NCBI RefSeq assembly: GCF_006440675.2
Contig: NZ_CP083951.1
Coordinates: 3,939,501 to 4,003,500 of the forward strand
Origin: Mesorhizobium sp. B2-8-5
Lineage (GTDB): Bacteria > Pseudomonadota > Alphaproteobacteria > Rhizobiales > Rhizobiaceae
DNA length: 64,000 nt
Direction of reading: 5' to 3'
In this document: piece after piece, positions 1,563 through 8,738 of the stretch
Layout of the letters: the number at the start of each line of letters is the position of its first letter
Numbering within the stretch: the stretch's first letter is position 1
Made by a program: the position numbers and the translations under genes
The notes under the pieces: model-generated
What the model saw: the letters and a program-made list of their open reading frames with translations, nothing else
What the model was told of the DNA's origin: nothing
Database searches by the model: none

Positions 1563-1849
1563 CCCACGCCCATGCGCCGCAGCCGTCATCCGTCCGCTTC
1601 CCGGTGCAGCCGCGCCTGGTGCCGCCGGCCAAGGCGGCGCGCTACCTGCACCTGACGCTGCCGGAATTCCTCGAGCTGCTGCCGGCGCTGCAACTGCAGG
1701 GGTTCCCGAAAGCCTGTCCGATCACCGGCAATTACGACATGGTGGCGATCGACGCCTGGCAGGACAGGCGCTCGGGTCTTGCCGGCCAGCCCGCGACCGC
1801 GCAGTCTAGCGCCGAAATCGCAAAGGCGAGGCTGGCGACCCTTGGCTAA
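1559..1849 (+). CDS. Excisionase-like / AlpA-like small DNA-binding protein
   Basis: A 96-residue protein begun at the GTG at 1559, overlapping the upstream TGA (GTGA). A longer reading in this frame exists from 1409, but it would sit inside the ASCH gene. After a Pro-rich head comes RLVPPAKAARYLHLTLPEF, which looks like the first helices of a winged or AlpA/Xis-type helix-turn-helix, and then FPKACPITGNYDMVAIDAW, the typical wing plus domain ending of recombination directionality factors. Its position immediately before the integrase, overlapping it by 8 bases, fits an excisionase or regulator. Function is inferred from layout and fold pattern only. Confidence 0.65.
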   Translation: MTHAHAPQPSSVRFPVQPRLVPPAKAARYLHLTLPEFLELLPALQLQGFPKACPITGNYDMVAIDAWQDRRSGLAGQPATAQSSAEIAKARLATLG

Positions 1850-3044
1850 GATCAAGCTGAAGCACTACGTCATCCGCAAGGGCAAATACGGCTACTGGCT
1901 GCCGACGCCGAAGATGATGGAAGCCGGCTTCGAATGCATTCCCTGTGGCGTGGACGGTCCGGACGCATGGGCGATCGCCAAGGAATGGGAAGATCGCTGG
2001 CAGGCCTTCAGGAAGGGCAGGGAGCCGCCGCGGCTCGACGCCTGGCCCAAGGATTCCATCGGCGACGCCTTCGCGCGCTACCGGCGCATGGAAGCATGGA
2101 AGAGCCGGCCGCCGCGCACACGCGAAGACTGGGAGCGGGGCTGGGCTTTCATCGAGCCGTACTTCGCCGACCTGCCGCCGGCCGACATAACCCTCGAGCT
2201 GCTCGACGACTGGTATGCGCGCCTGCTGCGCGCCAAGGGCGTCGACACCGCCTATCGCGCCATGAAGACGTGGCGCGCGCTCTACAATGTCATGGCCGGC
2301 ATGAAGCTCTGCGCGCCGAAGGCGGATCCGTCGCTGGCGATCCGCCGCAAGACGCCCAATGCCCGCAACCAGATTTGGACAGCCGGCGAGGTCGTGCGGC
2401 TGGTGAAGGGCGCCTGGCGCGCCGGCTTCAAGGGTCTCGCCTGCATCATCGCCGTCGCCTGGGACACCAGCTTCTCGCCGGTCGACGTGCGCACGCTGAC
2501 GCCGGCGCAGGCGATGCAGACGGCGCAGGAATGGGGTTTTCTGATCGCGCGCACCAAGAGCGGCGAGAGCGCCTTCGGCACGCTGTCGCGGCGCACGCAG
2601 CGCCTGGTGCTCGCCTATGTCGAGCAGCTCGGCTTCACCTTGCTCGACGATGCACCGATCTTTCGCTCGCGCGGCTTCGCGCCGGGGCCGAAGGGCGGAC
2701 GCCCGCGCGCCGGCGTGCCCTATACGAAGGACAGCCTTGTCGACGATTTCGCCGACGTCCGCAGGTTGGTGTTCGGGGAGAATGAAAAGCGCCGGCTGAT
2801 GGACATGCGGCGTTCCGGCGCGGTCGAGGCCAATGCCGGCGGCGCGTCCGTCGAGGCCATCGCGGCCAAGATGGGCAACTCGATCGACGAGAGCAAGGCG
2901 CTGCAGAAGACCTATATGCCGGTCAACCTGGCCGCGGTTCGCGCGGCCGACCTGTCGCGTCGCGCCGGCCGCAAGGCGCTCGGCAAAGAGCTCAATGAAT
3001 ATCGGCCGATGAAACTGGCCAGCGGAGAGGCGAAGGGCAAATGA
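1842..3044 (+). CDS. Tyrosine recombinase / site-specific integrase
   Basis: I place the start at the TTG at 1842 (400 residues), overlapping the preceding stop; the open frame runs back to 1779, but the protein then reads LAKIKLKHY, matching the start of the neighbouring gene's product. Residues 3-58 form an N-terminal module (GYWLPTPKM, CGVDGP, AIAKEWEDRW), followed by a SAM-like core-binding region (about 70-160) and the catalytic domain. Visible catalytic residues are Arg217 (VDVRTL), Lys239 (TKSG), Arg323 (DMRRSG) and the Tyr358 nucleophile (KTYMPV). The two classical histidines are replaced (Met320, Asn346), as in a known rhizobial subgroup with MGNS. It sits at the 3' end of tRNA-Asp and probably integrates the element there. 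Confidence 0.9.
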   Translation: MAKIKLKHYVIRKGKYGYWLPTPKMMEAGFECIPCGVDGPDAWAIAKEWEDRWQAFRKGREPPRLDAWPKDSIGDAFARYRRMEAWKSRPPRTREDWERGWAFIEPYFADLPPADITLELLDDWYARLLRAKGVDTAYRAMKTWRALYNVMAGMKLCAPKADPSLAIRRKTPNARNQIWTAGEVVRLVKGAWRAGFKGLACIIAVAWDTSFSPVDVRTLTPAQAMQTAQEWGFLIARTKSGESAFGTLSRRTQRLVLAYVEQLGFTLLDDAPIFRSRGFAPGPKGGRPRAGVPYTKDSLVDDFADVRRLVFGENEKRRLMDMRRSGAVEANAGGASVEAIAAKMGNSIDESKALQKTYMPVNLAAVRAADLSRRAGRKALGKELNEYRPMKLASGEAKGK

Positions 3045-3616
3045 AGGTCCGCATCCGCTATTATCGCGTCATCAAGGGACATGGCTATTGGTGCCCGACC
3101 CCGAAGATGAAGGCTCTCGGCCTCTCGATCGTCAGATGCGGGCCGGACGGCCCGCAGGCGCATGCAATAGCCGCGGAGTGGAACGAGCGCTGGGAGAGCC
3201 TGCGCATCGCCGCAAAGAAGGAGCCAGCGTCGGCGCCGATAGCCAATGACGATGCGCGCGGCTACGTCTATTTCTTGCGCAGCGGTGACCGAATCAAGAT
3301 CGGCTTCTCGACAACTCCACTTGAGAGGACGAGCAACCTGCGAACATCGATGCCGGAGGATTACGACCTATGCCTGATCCTCAAGGGCACTCGGAAAGAC
3401 GAAAAGCGCCTCCATAGTCGGTTCGGCTCCTATCGCAGAAACGGCGAATGGTTTGTCGCCAGCCGCCCGATTCGAATGACGATCATGCGCTCGGCGATGG
3501 CCGGCCACGTCGTTCATGACGGTGATGAAAAACAGTTTCCCGGAACAGACGAAGCACAAAAAGTTGAAACCACCCCAGGTAAAGTTTCAACTTCCGAAAA
3601 TGGCGCTTCTGCCTAA
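3041..3616 (+). CDS. GIY-YIG (T5orf172/Mug113-like) protein with integrase-type N-terminal domain
   Basis: A 191-residue protein whose ATG overlaps the integrase stop. Residues 1-57 closely match the integrase N-terminus: both contain GYWxPTPKM, CGxDGPxA and AIAxEWxxRW with the same spacing. Residues 74-141 form a GIY-YIG fold of the T5orf172/Mug113 type: YVYFL, KIGFS (86-90), Arg96, then EKRLHSRF (Glu121, His125) and NGEWF (134-138). Such domains are usually DNA nicking or cutting modules. The C-terminal 50 residues are polar and look disordered. The gene ends 14 bp from tRNA-Asp. A shared att-binding arm domain joined to a nuclease is inference; no phenotype can be read. Confidence 0.8.
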   Translation: MKVRIRYYRVIKGHGYWCPTPKMKALGLSIVRCGPDGPQAHAIAAEWNERWESLRIAAKKEPASAPIANDDARGYVYFLRSGDRIKIGFSTTPLERTSNLRTSMPEDYDLCLILKGTRKDEKRLHSRFGSYRRNGEWFVASRPIRMTIMRSAMAGHVVHDGDEKQFPGTDEAQKVETTPGKVSTSENGASA

Positions 3617-3630
3617 GTCCTTGAAAAGAC

Positions 3631-3707
3631 TGGCGCGAGTGACGGGGCTCGAACCCGCGACCTCCGGCGTGACAGGCCGGCACTCTAACCGACTGAGCTA
3701 CACCCGC
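3631..3707 (-). tRNA. tRNA-Asp (GTC)
   Basis: Read on the minus strand, the gene starts GCGGGTG at 3707 and ends with encoded CCA at 3631. The acceptor arms GCGGGTG and CACTCGC pair with one G-U. D-loop (AGCTCAGTCGGTTAGAG), anticodon stem GCCGG/CCGGC around CTGTCAC with anticodon GTC, and T-arm (GGTTCGAGCC) are all present. The 3' end faces the island, so this is its probable integration target. Confidence 0.97.
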
Positions 3708-4081: not shown

Positions 4082-4621
4082 CTATTGCCTCACGTAACAG
4101 CGCTTGTGGGCGCCCGGCGCGGGATCATCGCCGAAAGCGTTGTTGCCGCAGCGGACGCCGTTTCTGAAAACATTCTGCGTGTATTGGCCACGTGCGCCGT
4201 ATCTGACCATCGCGCGGCCGCGGAAACCGCAGAACTCGCCCTCCCTGGCGCAGGCTACCCATTCGCCGCGGTCCGGGCGTGAGCCGTAATCATTGTCCCC
4301 GTAATTGTTGTCATCGCCATAACCGCCGCCGCGCGCCACGAAATAGCAGGCCTTGTCGCGGCCGGGAGCGGGGTCGCCAAAAAGGCGATTCGAGCAGGGC
4401 ACGGACTGACGATCGAAAAACCGCGAGGTTGTTCGACCCCGTGCGCCGTAAACGACCTCCGTGGGATAGGGCAAGCGGCATATGCCGCCTTCATCGGCGC
4501 ATCGCCGCAGCTGCTGCGCCGAGGCCGAGGTGGGGAAAAGGGCGGACGCCGCGGCGACCAGCCCGGCCAGACACATGAAGGCCAGCATCGTTCGGATCGA
4601 GACGCGAAAAGTTTTTAACAC
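4082..4621 (-). CDS. Secreted protein with two Cys-rich repeats
   Basis: I chose the GTG at 4621 because GGGAG lies about 8 bases upstream; an ATG at 4654 lacks a convincing ribosome site. The 179-residue product has a signal peptide (positive head, hydrophobic LAFMCLAGLVAAASALF, cleavage near SASAQ). The mature part contains two repeats of about 50 residues: CADEGGICR...YGARG...CSNRLFGDPAPGRDKACYF and CAREGEFCG...YGARG...CGNNAFGDDPAPGAHKRCYV, separated by a Gly/Asp/Tyr linker. Four cysteines per repeat suggest disulfides and an extracytoplasmic location. I recognise the repeat from secreted bacterial proteins with lectin-like tails but cannot assign a ligand. Confidence 0.75.
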   Translation of the reverse strand: MLKTFRVSIRTMLAFMCLAGLVAAASALFPTSASAQQLRRCADEGGICRLPYPTEVVYGARGRTTSRFFDRQSVPCSNRLFGDPAPGRDKACYFVARGGGYGDDNNYGDNDYGSRPDRGEWVACAREGEFCGFRGRAMVRYGARGQYTQNVFRNGVRCGNNAFGDDPAPGAHKRCYVRQ

Positions 4622-5000
4622 GAATTGTCTCCCGGTTTGGTTGTACGCAGGCATCCTATCGCAGACCGACTAAATGCGCGATGAATGCCTGATTGCTGTC
4701 GGGAGCTGTCAGGCAAGCACTTTGACGGCCGTCTGCCGGTCGCCTTAGCCGACATCGAGCTTTTGGGCTTCGATCGCGTTCGGCGCTCAAGCCATCGGCC
4801 GGGAGCTGCGGACAAGTCGCTGCCGTGTCAGGATCAGGGGTGCCACGGCCTTACCGGCCAGGAGCGAGGGGCAATCATCGGGACAGGCCCTGCCTATGCG
4901 TTGACCTGGCCGATTGCCGACCGTCAAAACCACCGCGATGGTGGGCGGCAGGGGAAGCCGCGGCTCGTCCCCGACCAGATCGATCCGGTGAGGAGAAAAG
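4622..5000. other. Intergenic region without recognised gene
   Basis: About 380 bp between the secreted protein and the M24 peptidase gene. A frame on the plus strand (4685-5008) has no ribosome site and no recognisable protein character. The only clear signal is GAGGAGA just before the ATG at 5001. The upstream half must hold promoters for both divergent genes, but I see no strong consensus. Confidence 0.5.
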
Positions 5001-6179: not shown

Positions 6180-7392
6180 CCGGCCGTCTTCAGCAAGCGA
6201 TACCGCGGCCGACATCGATGCCGGAATTCTCGATCGGATGATCGAGATCCGCCGTCACTTGCATCGTTACCCGGAGCTTTCAAACCGCGAGGCGGGCACG
6301 CAACGCTATTTGCGGGAGATGCTGGCAAGCGAAGGTATCGCCGACATCCGCGACGTCGCCGGCTATGGGCTTGCAGTCGATATCGTCGGCACCGGCAGGC
6401 CGTCCAACCGCAAGCTCGCCATTCGCGCCGACATAGACGCCTTGCCGATCGAAGAGGAATCCGGCGTCGATTATGCGTCGGAAAATTCAGGCGTGATGCA
6501 TGCCTGCGGCCACGACGCCCATGCCGCGATGGGCTTTGCGGTGGCAGCGCATCTGCATCGCTCACGCGAAAGTTTCGGCGGGACCGTTCGGCTCATCTTC
6601 CAGCCGGCCGAGGAAGACGAGCCGTCAGGAGGCAAGCGGGTGGTGGAGGAGGGACTTCTCGACGACGTCGACGCGGCGATCTGCGTCCACGTCGATCCAT
6701 ACACGCTTTCCGGCAAGGTCGCCGTCGGCTCCGGGCCGTACACTCTGGCATGCGACACGTTCGACGTGCTGGTCACCGGCTCGGCGGCGCATGCGGCTAA
6801 ACCCTATGAAGGTGTCGACGCGCTGACTGTCGCCTGCTCCATGGTGAGCGAATTGCAGAAGATCGTCTCGCGCGAGACCGATCCCTATGATCCGCTGGTC
6901 ATTTCGGTGACCGCCATCAATGGCGGCAATGCCTACAATGTCACCGCCGGCAAGGTCGCGTTGAAAGGCACAATACGCAGCGGCAATGATGCCACCCGGG
7001 AGCGCGCCTGGCGCCGGGTTCGCGAGGTGCTGGAGGGCGTAGCGGTCAGCCATAGCGCCAAGGTGAAGGTCGACATCCATCGCGGCGAACCAGGCGTCGT
7101 CAACGATGCCGAAATGGCCGAACTGATCCTTGCCAGCGCCAAGGCCAGCATCGGCGCGGACAATGTCCTCACCGTGCCCGGCTGGAGCATCGCCGATGAC
7201 TTCGGCTACTACAGCGAGAAGCGTCCGTCGGTCTATTTCCGGCTCGGCATCCGCAACGAGGAGGTCGGATCGGTCTATCCGCTTCACCATTCCAGGTTTC
7301 GCGTCGACGAGGCCGCATTGAAGAACGGCGTCCTTACGTTGGTTTCCGCGGCAACGATGTACCTGGCCGGGCAGGAGAATCCTGGCGTCTAG
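6166..7392 (+). CDS. M20D-family amidohydrolase (possible DoeB2-type deacetylase)
   Basis: A 408-residue peptidase-M20 aminoacylase. Metal-binding elements are visible: RADIDALPI, the MHACGHDAHAAM block (about 108-119), FQPAEEDEPSGG with its Glu pair, and a C-terminal HHSRFRVDE. The insert SAAHAAKPYEGVDAL is the usual dimerisation-lid start. Such enzymes remove acyl groups from N-acyl amino acids. Translational overlap with the DoeA-like gene suggests that it deacetylates N-acetyl-diaminobutyrate, a role given to M20-type DoeB2 in some bacteria; this is inference. Hippurate or auxin-conjugate hydrolase activity is the alternative. Confidence 0.75.
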   Translation: MSKPDRPSSASDTAADIDAGILDRMIEIRRHLHRYPELSNREAGTQRYLREMLASEGIADIRDVAGYGLAVDIVGTGRPSNRKLAIRADIDALPIEEESGVDYASENSGVMHACGHDAHAAMGFAVAAHLHRSRESFGGTVRLIFQPAEEDEPSGGKRVVEEGLLDDVDAAICVHVDPYTLSGKVAVGSGPYTLACDTFDVLVTGSAAHAAKPYEGVDALTVACSMVSELQKIVSRETDPYDPLVISVTAINGGNAYNVTAGKVALKGTIRSGNDATRERAWRRVREVLEGVAVSHSAKVKVDIHRGEPGVVNDAEMAELILASAKASIGADNVLTVPGWSIADDFGYYSEKRPSVYFRLGIRNEEVGSVYPLHHSRFRVDEAALKNGVLTLVSAATMYLAGQENPGV

Positions 7393-7409
7393 CGAGGACC
7401 GCCAATCTG

Positions 7410-8738
7410 TTAGAGGTACTGCGCGACCTTCTTGCCGACAGTCAGGAAGCGCAGCGGGTCGACCGCCTCGCCGTCGTGACGCACTTCGTAGTGGAGGTGC
7501 GGCCCGGTCGAACGGCCGCTGCTGCCGGTCTTGCCGATGACCTCGCCGGCGGCGAGTTTCTGGCCGACACTTACATCGATCTCGCTCAAATGCCCGTAAC
7601 GTGTGGCAAAGCCGTTGCCGTGGTCGACCTCGACCATGCGGCCGTAGCCGCCGGCCCACCCGGCCCTGGTGACGGTGCCGGCGGCCGTGACCTTGGCCGG
7701 CATGCCGATCGGCGCCCTGAAATCCATTCCCGTATGCAAGGCGGCGGTGCCGAGGATCGGGTCGGTGCGCACACCGAACGGGCTGGTCACCGTATGGCCC
7801 GGAGCGGGGTTGGCGAGCGGCAGCTTGCGCGCCTCCTTCTTGACCCCATCGAGCGCATCGAGTGCCTCGTCGAGTTCCTTGACCTTGCTGTCGAAAACCA
7901 TCGAGGGATCAATCGGAACCAGTGGGCCGCCGACGTCGCTCTTGCCGAACTCGCTGTCGACCGGCAGGCCCGCCGCTTCCAGCGCCTGGGCGATGGCGTC
8001 GGCATTCTTGTAGGCGTTGTCGGCAAGCGTGGTGATGCGCGAAAGCTGCTGGTTCTCGATGGCCTTCAGCGACGTATTGATCGAGACGAACAGCTTGTCG
8101 GCGCGGTCGGCGGCCGTTTCGCCGTCAAGCGGGTCGGATCTTGTCGACCAGAGCGAGAATGGCCTGGTGTCACCGGCGCTCAAGGATGCGACGGAATAGG
8201 TCGGCGCCTGCGAAAGGCTGCCGGTGACCTCTGGATTTGCGTCGGGCTTAGGCGCCGCTGCGCTCGTCGCGGGAACGTCGCCGACCTCGTTCTCGGCGCG
8301 CTCGAGGATCGGCCCAAGCCGTCCGTGCCGCTCGCTGAGCTGGGTCTGCCTGGCCAGCAGCTCGCTGACCTTGGTCTCCATCAGTTGCTGATCGAGAAGC
8401 TGGCGGCTGGTGATGCGGTCGACCTGGGCGCGAAGGGCCGAGATGCGGTCCTCATAGGCCTGCTGCATGCGCGCCTGTCTTGCTGTCGTGGCCCCGATCA
8501 GGTCGTCGCGCAGCACCAGATAGGAAGTCGCGAGCAAATAGCCGATGGCGATCGCCGCCAGGGCCGAGCCGATGAAGGCGGCGAGCCAGGGGCGGATGGT
8601 GAAATGCCTTATCTCGTTGCCCCGGGCGATGATGACCGTGTGCGGTTCCTTACGCCTGCCGAAGACAGCTGACTGACCGGTTGGTTTCACGGGGACCAAG
8701 CTTTCGTTACGGGACCAACGACAAGCCTGATTACACAT
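7410..8738 (-). CDS. M23-family (LytM) peptidoglycan endopeptidase, membrane-anchored
   Basis: About 442 residues from the ATG at 8738; later TTG (8699) and GTG (8690) starts are also possible, since none has a clear ribosome site. A short cytoplasmic segment (RKEPHTVIIARGNEIRHF) is followed by one membrane helix (WLAAFIGSALAAIAIGYLL). Next come a coiled-coil stretch rich in Gln/Arg (about 85-150), a low-complexity linker, and the C-terminal LytM domain. Zinc ligands are intact: LHTGMDF (HxxxD) and GPHLHYEV (HxH). The enzyme probably cuts peptide crosslinks in the periplasm. It is convergent with the M20 gene. Confidence 0.85.
   Translation of the reverse strand: MCNQACRWSRNESLVPVKPTGQSAVFGRRKEPHTVIIARGNEIRHFTIRPWLAAFIGSALAAIAIGYLLATSYLVLRDDLIGATTARQARMQQAYEDRISALRAQVDRITSRQLLDQQLMETKVSELLARQTQLSERHGRLGPILERAENEVGDVPATSAAAPKPDANPEVTGSLSQAPTYSVASLSAGDTRPFSLWSTRSDPLDGETAADRADKLFVSINTSLKAIENQQLSRITTLADNAYKNADAIAQALEAAGLPVDSEFGKSDVGGPLVPIDPSMVFDSKVKELDEALDALDGVKKEARKLPLANPAPGHTVTSPFGVRTDPILGTAALHTGMDFRAPIGMPAKVTAAGTVTRAGWAGGYGRMVEVDHGNGFATRYGHLSEIDVSVGQKLAAGEVIGKTGSSGRSTGPHLHYEVRHDGEAVDPLRFLTVGKKVAQYL

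Follow-up and report, generated by a model that had tools for sequence, protein, structure and literature searches.

What does a predicted nuclease that carries an integrase's N-terminal domain do beside a prophage attachment (att) site? This question is raised by a 64,000-nucleotide stretch of the Mesorhizobium sp. B2-8-5 genome (contig NZ_CP083951.1, positions 3,939,501 to 4,003,500; hereafter, the window), the left end of which is the right end of a prophage. There, the integrase gene is followed by a gene for a second protein, P0002, in which an integrase-type N-terminal domain is joined to a GIY-YIG domain. We call this second protein, and its counterparts in other elements, the twin. Our analysis suggests that the twin is a nuclease directed to att arm sites, its likeliest targets being elements that compete with its own for one tRNA. 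We put the probability of this reading at roughly 0.45, with an evidence base of 19 twin loci and seven class-1 pairs (classes are defined below). The observations in hand are the shared domain, its recurrence, the matching of classes, the position at att, the covarying arm sites and the conserved nuclease residues.

Results

The Integrase and Its Twin Share an N-Terminal Domain

The integrase, a tyrosine recombinase of 400 amino acids, is encoded at 1842..3044 on the + strand with a TTG start codon. It matched PHROG 1 'integrase' (7.1e-10) and had zero matches in Pfam, PF00589 included. Its family is large: of 8000 proteins scored, 1171 reached E<=0.001. The motifs DTxFSPVDVR, MDMRRSG and KMGN ahead of the Tyr are seen in this family, and the class-1 integrase boxes presumably diverge from the usual tyrosine recombinase catalytic boxes. 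The twin gene (3041..3616, + strand, ATG start, 191 amino acids) overlaps the integrase gene by the sequence ATGA at 3041..3044 (+), which suggests translational coupling. Thus, the twin is probably co-produced with the integrase.

The N-terminal domains of the integrase (1842..2018, +) and the twin (3041..3211, +), both of a type that we designate class 1, were compared by BLASTP. Identity was 27/55 (49%) and similarity 38/55 with one gap (E 2e-17), and the landmarks GYWxPTPKM, CGxDGPxA and AIAxEWxxRW were present in the alignment. Because integrase-plus-twin pairs recur in other elements, this likeness is not due to chance; the duplicated N-terminal domain reported in an earlier note on this DNA is real.

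The same note had assigned a T5orf172/Mug113-type GIY-YIG module to the second protein, and this also held. The GIY-YIG domain of the twin (3257..3514, +) matched Pfam MUG113 at residues 86-139 (2.5e-9, 38.0 bits, cut-off 22.3) and T5orf172 at residues 74-140 (4.1e-6, 27.7 bits, cut-off 20). In an alignment of 27 sequences, Y77, F78, K86, I87, G88, R96, E121, H125, E136 and F138 were invariant. We take R96 and E121 to be the textbook catalytic Arg and Glu of GIY-YIG. PADLOC gave weak PDC-S57 matches on the GIY part (0.0013 for the window twin; best, 3.7e-5 for the L116 twin), and no NCBIfam match was found for seven proteins.

Integrase-Plus-Twin Pairs Recur in Other Elements

Loci, cited here by L or G handles, were gathered through viral and genome scans and genome searches, and the N-termini of the GIY-YIG proteins were compared with the other open reading frames (ORFs) of the same locus. 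The first round covered 19 loci, and further loci were added later. Near-identical rows (L001/L035/L138/L177; L145-L150, L176 and L178) were removed before counting. A search with P0002 yielded 36 proteins at E<=0.001, P0002 itself counted. The earlier note had proposed looking for other loci that pair this domain with a recombinase and with a nuclease, and such pairs were found in several elements.

Class-1 pairs are present in the window, L002/L035, L046, L048, L173, L141 and L146. The identity between the twin and the nearby same-strand integrase N-terminus was 60% in L002/L035, 48% in L046 and 54% over 41 amino acids in L048. A scan with class-1 integrases (62 loci) added L141, L146 and L173; the L146 pair, which falls below the BLASTP 0.001 threshold, was counted since both proteins match the class-1 profile. 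Class-4 pairs, with the N-terminal motif 'GRPRF.PG', were found in L113 (60% over 57, E 9e-22), L115 (65% over 60), L187-L189, G1058 and G1059, L187-L189 having been added by a scan with class-4 twins (80 of 104 relatives retained). Pairs of other N-terminal classes occur in L116 (50% over 48, E 7e-12) and L117 (46% over 59, E 1e-12; a third class), and weakly in L118, where the match is at E 0.001 and the integrase is broken.

Not every GIY-YIG protein is such a twin. Most of those recovered by searching genomes bear some other N-terminus, or none. In L036 and L050, the GIY-YIG N-terminus did not match a nearby integrase, the neighbour similarity in L050 being not significant. The 453-amino-acid neighbour of the class-1 twin in L036/L047 gave neither an integrase match nor a class-1 N-terminus (1.0 bits), and GIY-YIG ORFs near the class-1 integrases of L181 and L161 have no class-1 domain. 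Among phage records, 22 matched P0002, none covering 80%, and one matched the integrase (a Microcystis phage at 40%). Among plasmid records, nine matched P0002, none covering 80%, and the class-4 twin had zero matches. No viral relative of the class-4 twin was detected in one viral scan with this twin as the sole query.

The Twin Gene Lies at the Attachment Site

In the window, the att core at 3628..3678 (+) recurs at the opposite prophage end (G000:C1:3900754-3900804) as a 51-bp perfect direct repeat, and lies in the 3' part of the tRNA-Asp (gtc) gene at 3631..3707 (−), the integration target. The repeat at both ends gives an element of about 42.4 kb. The twin stop codon is 12 bp from this core. 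A tRNA gene is also found within 100 bp past the twin in L035 (Asp), L036 (Arg), L113 (Lys), L116 (Gly) and L118 (Glu), as in the window, and a tRNA-like core directly follows the twin in L046, L146 and L173. No tRNA was in view in loci L114, L115, L117, L046 and L187-L189.

The class-1 twin genes overlap or almost abut the integrase gene, with a 4-bp overlap in 5/7 pairs (window, L002, L048, L141 and L146). Class-4 twins that lie on the integrase side are about 0.45-0.7 kb from the integrase. In the L185 and L186 records, the integrase and the twin are at opposite contig ends. The same twin as that of L186 is found in a class-4 prophage at G1023:C1:948810-987330, bounded by 46-bp repeats at a tRNA-Lys, with the twin and the integrase at opposite ends. 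Thus, the phage attachment site (attP) would sit between them in the circle.

The Class of the Twin Matches That of the Integrase

The N-terminal class of the twin was that of the integrase in 17/19 loci, the classes being assigned by hand and L141, L146 and L173 having been found through their class-1 integrase; shuffling gave a mean of 5.7, and 0/100000 shuffles were as high. A tree of the GIY-YIG domains was built from 86 of 114 distinct domains over 85 columns (28 unlabelled domains with E above 1e-9 were dropped), and many of its forks are unresolved. One clade of 43/86 rows (support 98/88) holds 22 class-1, 14 class-4 and 4 class-2 rows, intermixed, together with 3 rows having no recognised N-terminus; class 2 was assigned by eye, with an integrase in view for just one of its four rows. 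Outside this clade are L029 (the L116 twin), L031 (the L117 twin) and L050. Since the classes are intermixed within one clade, the tree indicates one nuclease lineage that has been refitted, more than once, with the N-terminal domain of the element's own integrase class. One or two more integrase-domain fusions look independent, judging from long branches whose placement is unsure.

The Shared Domain Very Probably Binds Arm Sites

The earlier note had supposed that the shared domain is the arm-site DNA-binding part of the integrase. This is very probably so, because at the paired sites beside att the variable bases change with two residues of the class-1 domain, as set out here and in the next section. 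In the window, the arm site AAGTTGAAAC lies at 3561..3570 (+), inside the 3' coding end of the twin. A second AAGTTGAAAC, inverted and likewise within the 3' end of the twin gene, is 23 bp further on at 3584..3593 (−), and another is about 72 bp inside the left end of the prophage. The prophage arms contain seven exact 10-mer matches, five of them AAGTTGAAAC (15 shuffles: mean 0.9, maximum 4). The twin-less relatives L123-L130, L017 and L014 carry the same arm motif at the 3' end of the integrase gene, with exact site pairs 23 bp apart in L127, L129 and L017. At the corresponding 3' end of the window integrase gene, one alignment tentatively places a possible arm-site relic, GATGAAACT (3008..3016, +), where twin-less L123 has GTTGAAACT.

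The class-1 arm consensus was AGTNNNAA, in which NNN is variable; we also refer to class-1 arm DNA as AGTNNNAAC-type. Our survey comprised 59 distinct class-1 N-termini, 47 of them with at least 60 bp of following DNA. Same-NNN pairs of AGTNNNAA were found beside att in 21/47 integrases, 19 direct (22-24 bp apart) and 2 inverted. The controls gave 0/9400 for shuffled sequences and 0/413 for internal segments. The other 26/47 integrases had no such pair, in seven cases because the twin intervenes. The NNN types seen were TGA, TGG, CTG, ATC, CTC, TAC, CGG and GGG, and CGA occurred in L155 at another spacing. Elsewhere in the window element (pieces L277-L279) no pair was found other than the inverted TGA pair at att, and a pair search in ten other twin loci found none, the sites there being single or at other spacings.

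The earlier note had held that occurrence of the domain in many unrelated proteins would refute its reading. This was not seen: all 83 ORFs with the class-4 domain are either of integrase size (78, one of them truncated where its locus ends) or GIY-YIG twins (5). The 30 matches that covered the class-1 N-terminus alone are all in open frames of 377-556 amino acids, which is integrase size, their identity having been checked in part. Among class-4 integrases, 8/9 tested matched PHROG 1 (L189 gave no match), and the L116 and L117 integrases matched PF00589. A PDB sequence search gave no usable relative.

Two Domain Positions Follow Two Bases of the Arm Site

Among 59 domain columns compared in 14 cluster representatives, column 10 ranked first for base 2 of NNN and column 18 first for base 3; for base 1, none of the 59 columns stood out. 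At column 10, R/K goes with G, V/I with T, and P with A. At column 18, L/V/Y goes with A, Q/E with G, and R with C. None of the 21 elements (14 clusters at 70%) departed from this grouped code.

With held-out elements, 9/20 had a site of the predicted class, as compared with 0.27 per alternative class, in a test that was not blind, several elements having been inspected by eye earlier; 4/9 hits (L155, L151, L160 and L175) are carried by A and S at column 18, residues whose assignment to the A group was prompted by such elements. The other 11/20 had no AGTNNNAA site within 80 bp, and some of them show sites such as AGTCGAAT. Excluded from the hold-out were L002, L011, L135, L167 and L171, in which a residue was missing or outside the code, and 13 rows with less than 100 bp in the tested stretch. 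This two-position code of the integrase arm-binding domain, with AGTNNNAA sites about 23 bp apart beside att (L123-L184 and L009-L028), is of interest apart from the nuclease.

The Twin Usually Differs from Its Own Integrase at the Base-Reading Positions

The base-reading positions of the window twin are I11 and C18, against R and L in the integrase. Written as columns 10/18 for the integrase and then the twin, the seven class-1 pairs are: window, R/L and I/C; L046, R/L and L/C; L173, R/E and I/Q; L141, R/A and P/R; L146, R/A and G/C (read from row L145, with an insertion near column 10); L048, K/Q and R/Q; and L002, R/C and R/C. Thus, the twin and its own integrase differ in base-reading group in 5/7 pairs. 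The element's own arm sites follow the integrase code in the window, L046, L173 and L048. For the L173 twin, the code predicts a site that ends in TG, like the CTG arms of L137, L169 and L010; tRNA-Asp-like cores are common to L173 and these three.

Within a class, the twin domain was the closest relative of its own integrase's domain in 1/14 pairs only. The own integrase ranked 64, 1, 124, 12, 99, 28 and 158 of 167 for class 1 and 10, 6, 45, 3, 45, 8 and 29 of 73 for class 4. This ranking does not support strict mimicry of the own integrase by the twin, as the own integrase was not the closest in 13/14 pairs. These ranks and the residue differences in 5/7 pairs also lend no support to the simple form of the proposal in the earlier note, that the second protein brings its nuclease to the same attachment site.

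Elements with Different Arm Types Share a tRNA-Asp-Like Core

The same tRNA-Asp-like stretch, judged by eye from sequence matches, follows 23/47 integrases, and seven arm types occur among them; ARAGORN confirmed tRNA-Asp in the window and L035 only. With seven NNN classes beside near-identical cores, these elements would compete for one site. A shared core with several arm types is the setting in which an att-directed nuclease, and escape from it through a changed arm code, would pay.

Other Features of the Prophage and Its Surroundings

The ten large prophage ORFs examined include those for a terminase, a head protein, a head protease, a tail fibre protein and a helicase. Two DNA methyltransferase-like genes lie in the prophage at L279:3-1931 and 7127-8344 (PHROG 116; PHROG 359 with a ParB-like part). 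A chromosomal ORF adjoining att (4082-4654, −) encodes two similar Cys-containing stretches, CADEGGICRLP and CAREGEFCGFR. P0036, of 106 amino acids, reads as a decayed twin N-terminus that runs into the tRNA-Asp att region, the nuclease part being seemingly lost. It is a possible relic of an integrase-plus-twin element.

Discussion

Proposed Action of the Twin and the Evidence Against It

In the reading that we prefer, a GIY-YIG (T5orf172/MUG113) cutting domain would be steered by a copied arm-site-binding domain of an integrase. The twin would most likely attach to arm sites in related elements that vie for one tRNA attachment site, and nick or cut the attP of these rivals. Arm sites of its own element would escape, since at the base-reading positions the twin and its own integrase usually have different residues. 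Binding, cutting, target and benefit are each predicted here from sequence.

Several points weigh against this reading. Two of the seven class-1 twins (L048 and L002) keep the base-reading groups of the integrase, and the class-4 ranks of the own integrase are better than chance (median 10 of 73). The class match is near strict, although a nuclease against rivals need not match the class of its own integrase. The arm sites are near-palindromic (AGTTNNAACT), and TGA reads TTC on the other strand; since I at column 10 of the window twin predicts T, this twin might read its own sites backwards. The code was derived on integrases, with residue groups picked after inspection of the data. Other columns come near column 18 for base 3 (column 48, 0.65 vs 0.76), and C18 of the window twin is absent among the 21 integrases behind the code. 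Furthermore, twins are rare: among 397 genomes, a GIY-YIG ORF was in the locus for 1/10 near-full-length class-1 integrases, that of the window (L014 had no following DNA). The L035 twin, from Methylobacterium UNC378MF, has an in-frame stop in the nuclease domain at about 6388. A near-identical intact copy of this twin exists in L002.

Alternative Explanations

The twin could act at its own att, binding its own arm sites beside the integrase and helping or restraining excision or integration by nicking, bending or competing, as an accessory or directionality factor. Excisionases and other recombination directionality factors are small proteins encoded beside the integrase and able to bind arm DNA. 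The twin resembles them in its size and position and, judging from its domain, could bind arm DNA as well; it differs in having a nuclease domain. No match of the excisionase or directionality factor type was found for the twins tested (P0002 in Pfam, PHROGs and NCBIfam; two twins in a further search; five in the NCBIfam search). The near-strict class match, the 4-bp overlap in 5/7 class-1 pairs and the position beside att favour this explanation, as do L048 and L002, in which the twin is in the integrase's base-reading groups, and the possibility that the window twin reads its own sites on the opposite strand. However, the twin was seen in just 14/62 class-1 integrase loci, representing 6 distinct elements (16 loci end within 100 bp of the integrase, too early to tell), and is therefore dispensable. 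Moreover, its fine sequence does not track that of its own integrase, the residues differing in 5/7 pairs, and a nuclease at work on its own att could put the prophage at risk of being cut. We consider this explanation unlikely, though one to be taken seriously.

A free-standing homing endonuclease would cut the att region of twin-less relatives in co-infection and, through repair, have its gene copied into the interval from the integrase gene to the core. The twin belongs to the same nuclease family as free-standing GIY-YIG/T5orf172 homing endonucleases, and its gene, like theirs, is small and encodes a terminus for DNA binding. The passages of PMC10448857 drawn on here count the T5orf172 genes of phage ICP1, in which one terminus binds DNA and the other is the nuclease, as homing endonuclease genes. 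The location of the twin between the integrase and the arm sites, and the possible relic site at the integrase 3' end, would also fit. In contrast, the closest twin-less relatives with DNA (L123 and L125) share TGA sites with the window element, and L123-L130 have the same site type. Thus, if a homing enzyme were aimed there, its own genome would be cut as well, unless the enzyme recognises some other sequence. In addition, ordinary homing would not require a DNA-binding part that, as in the twin, derives from an integrase N-terminal domain and has been refitted by class. Homing seems quite improbable. A by-product of domain shuffling at att, with the N-terminus a duplicate that has drifted and the nuclease either active at some other place or inactive, seems slightly less probable again. 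The near-random similarity of class-1 twins to their own integrase within the class agrees with drift, as do the rarity of twins and the one broken copy (L035). However, the active-site-like residues are invariant over 27 sequences, and refitting with different integrase N-termini, together with class matching, is hard to explain without selection.

Comparison with Known Systems

The closest described system is Odn (Gp88), the origin-directed nuclease of phage ICP1, which is 42% identical over 93% of the PLE1 RepA_N domain and cuts the PLE1 origin in vitro, whereas its E180A mutant does not, according to the parts of PMC8263062 used here. As in Odn, the twin couples a T5orf172 nuclease to a DNA-binding domain that has its homolog in a key protein of a mobile element (42% for Odn and RepA_N vs 49% for the twin and the integrase), and the glutamate required for cutting by Odn has a counterpart in an invariant glutamate of the twin. 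The difference is that Odn, as presented in those parts, borrows a replication-initiator domain, cuts the satellite origin and is encoded by the parasitised phage, whereas the domain of the twin is of the integrase type and its gene is near the integrase and att. For E. coli phages, the portions of PMC10448857 cited here describe Odn homologs in which T5orf172 nucleases mirror the variability of satellite RepA_N, much as the twin matches the integrase class; those homologs carry replication-initiator domains, and no integrase-domain fusion appears in these portions. Odn is thus, by analogy, a precedent for both the enzyme architecture and the diversification of targets. In titles and abstract openings of the open-licence literature searched under GIY-YIG/T5orf172, att, excisionase, homing and superinfection topics, no integrase-domain nuclease was described.

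Implications

A broader conclusion, which we offer tentatively and hold to be doubtful, is that phages sharing a tRNA site wage war at the att arms. Integrases would keep the core and diversify the arm code because integrase-domain nucleases of rival prophages cut attP, and attachment-site-directed nucleases would be a general, repeatedly refitted inter-phage weapon whose targets are predictable from sequence. If this is true, integration sites are targets of specific nucleases, the Odn principle extends from origins to att, and it is explained why related phages have a common tRNA core and yet diversified arm sites. The arm code, for its part, would make the DNA specificity of a large integrase family predictable and testable.

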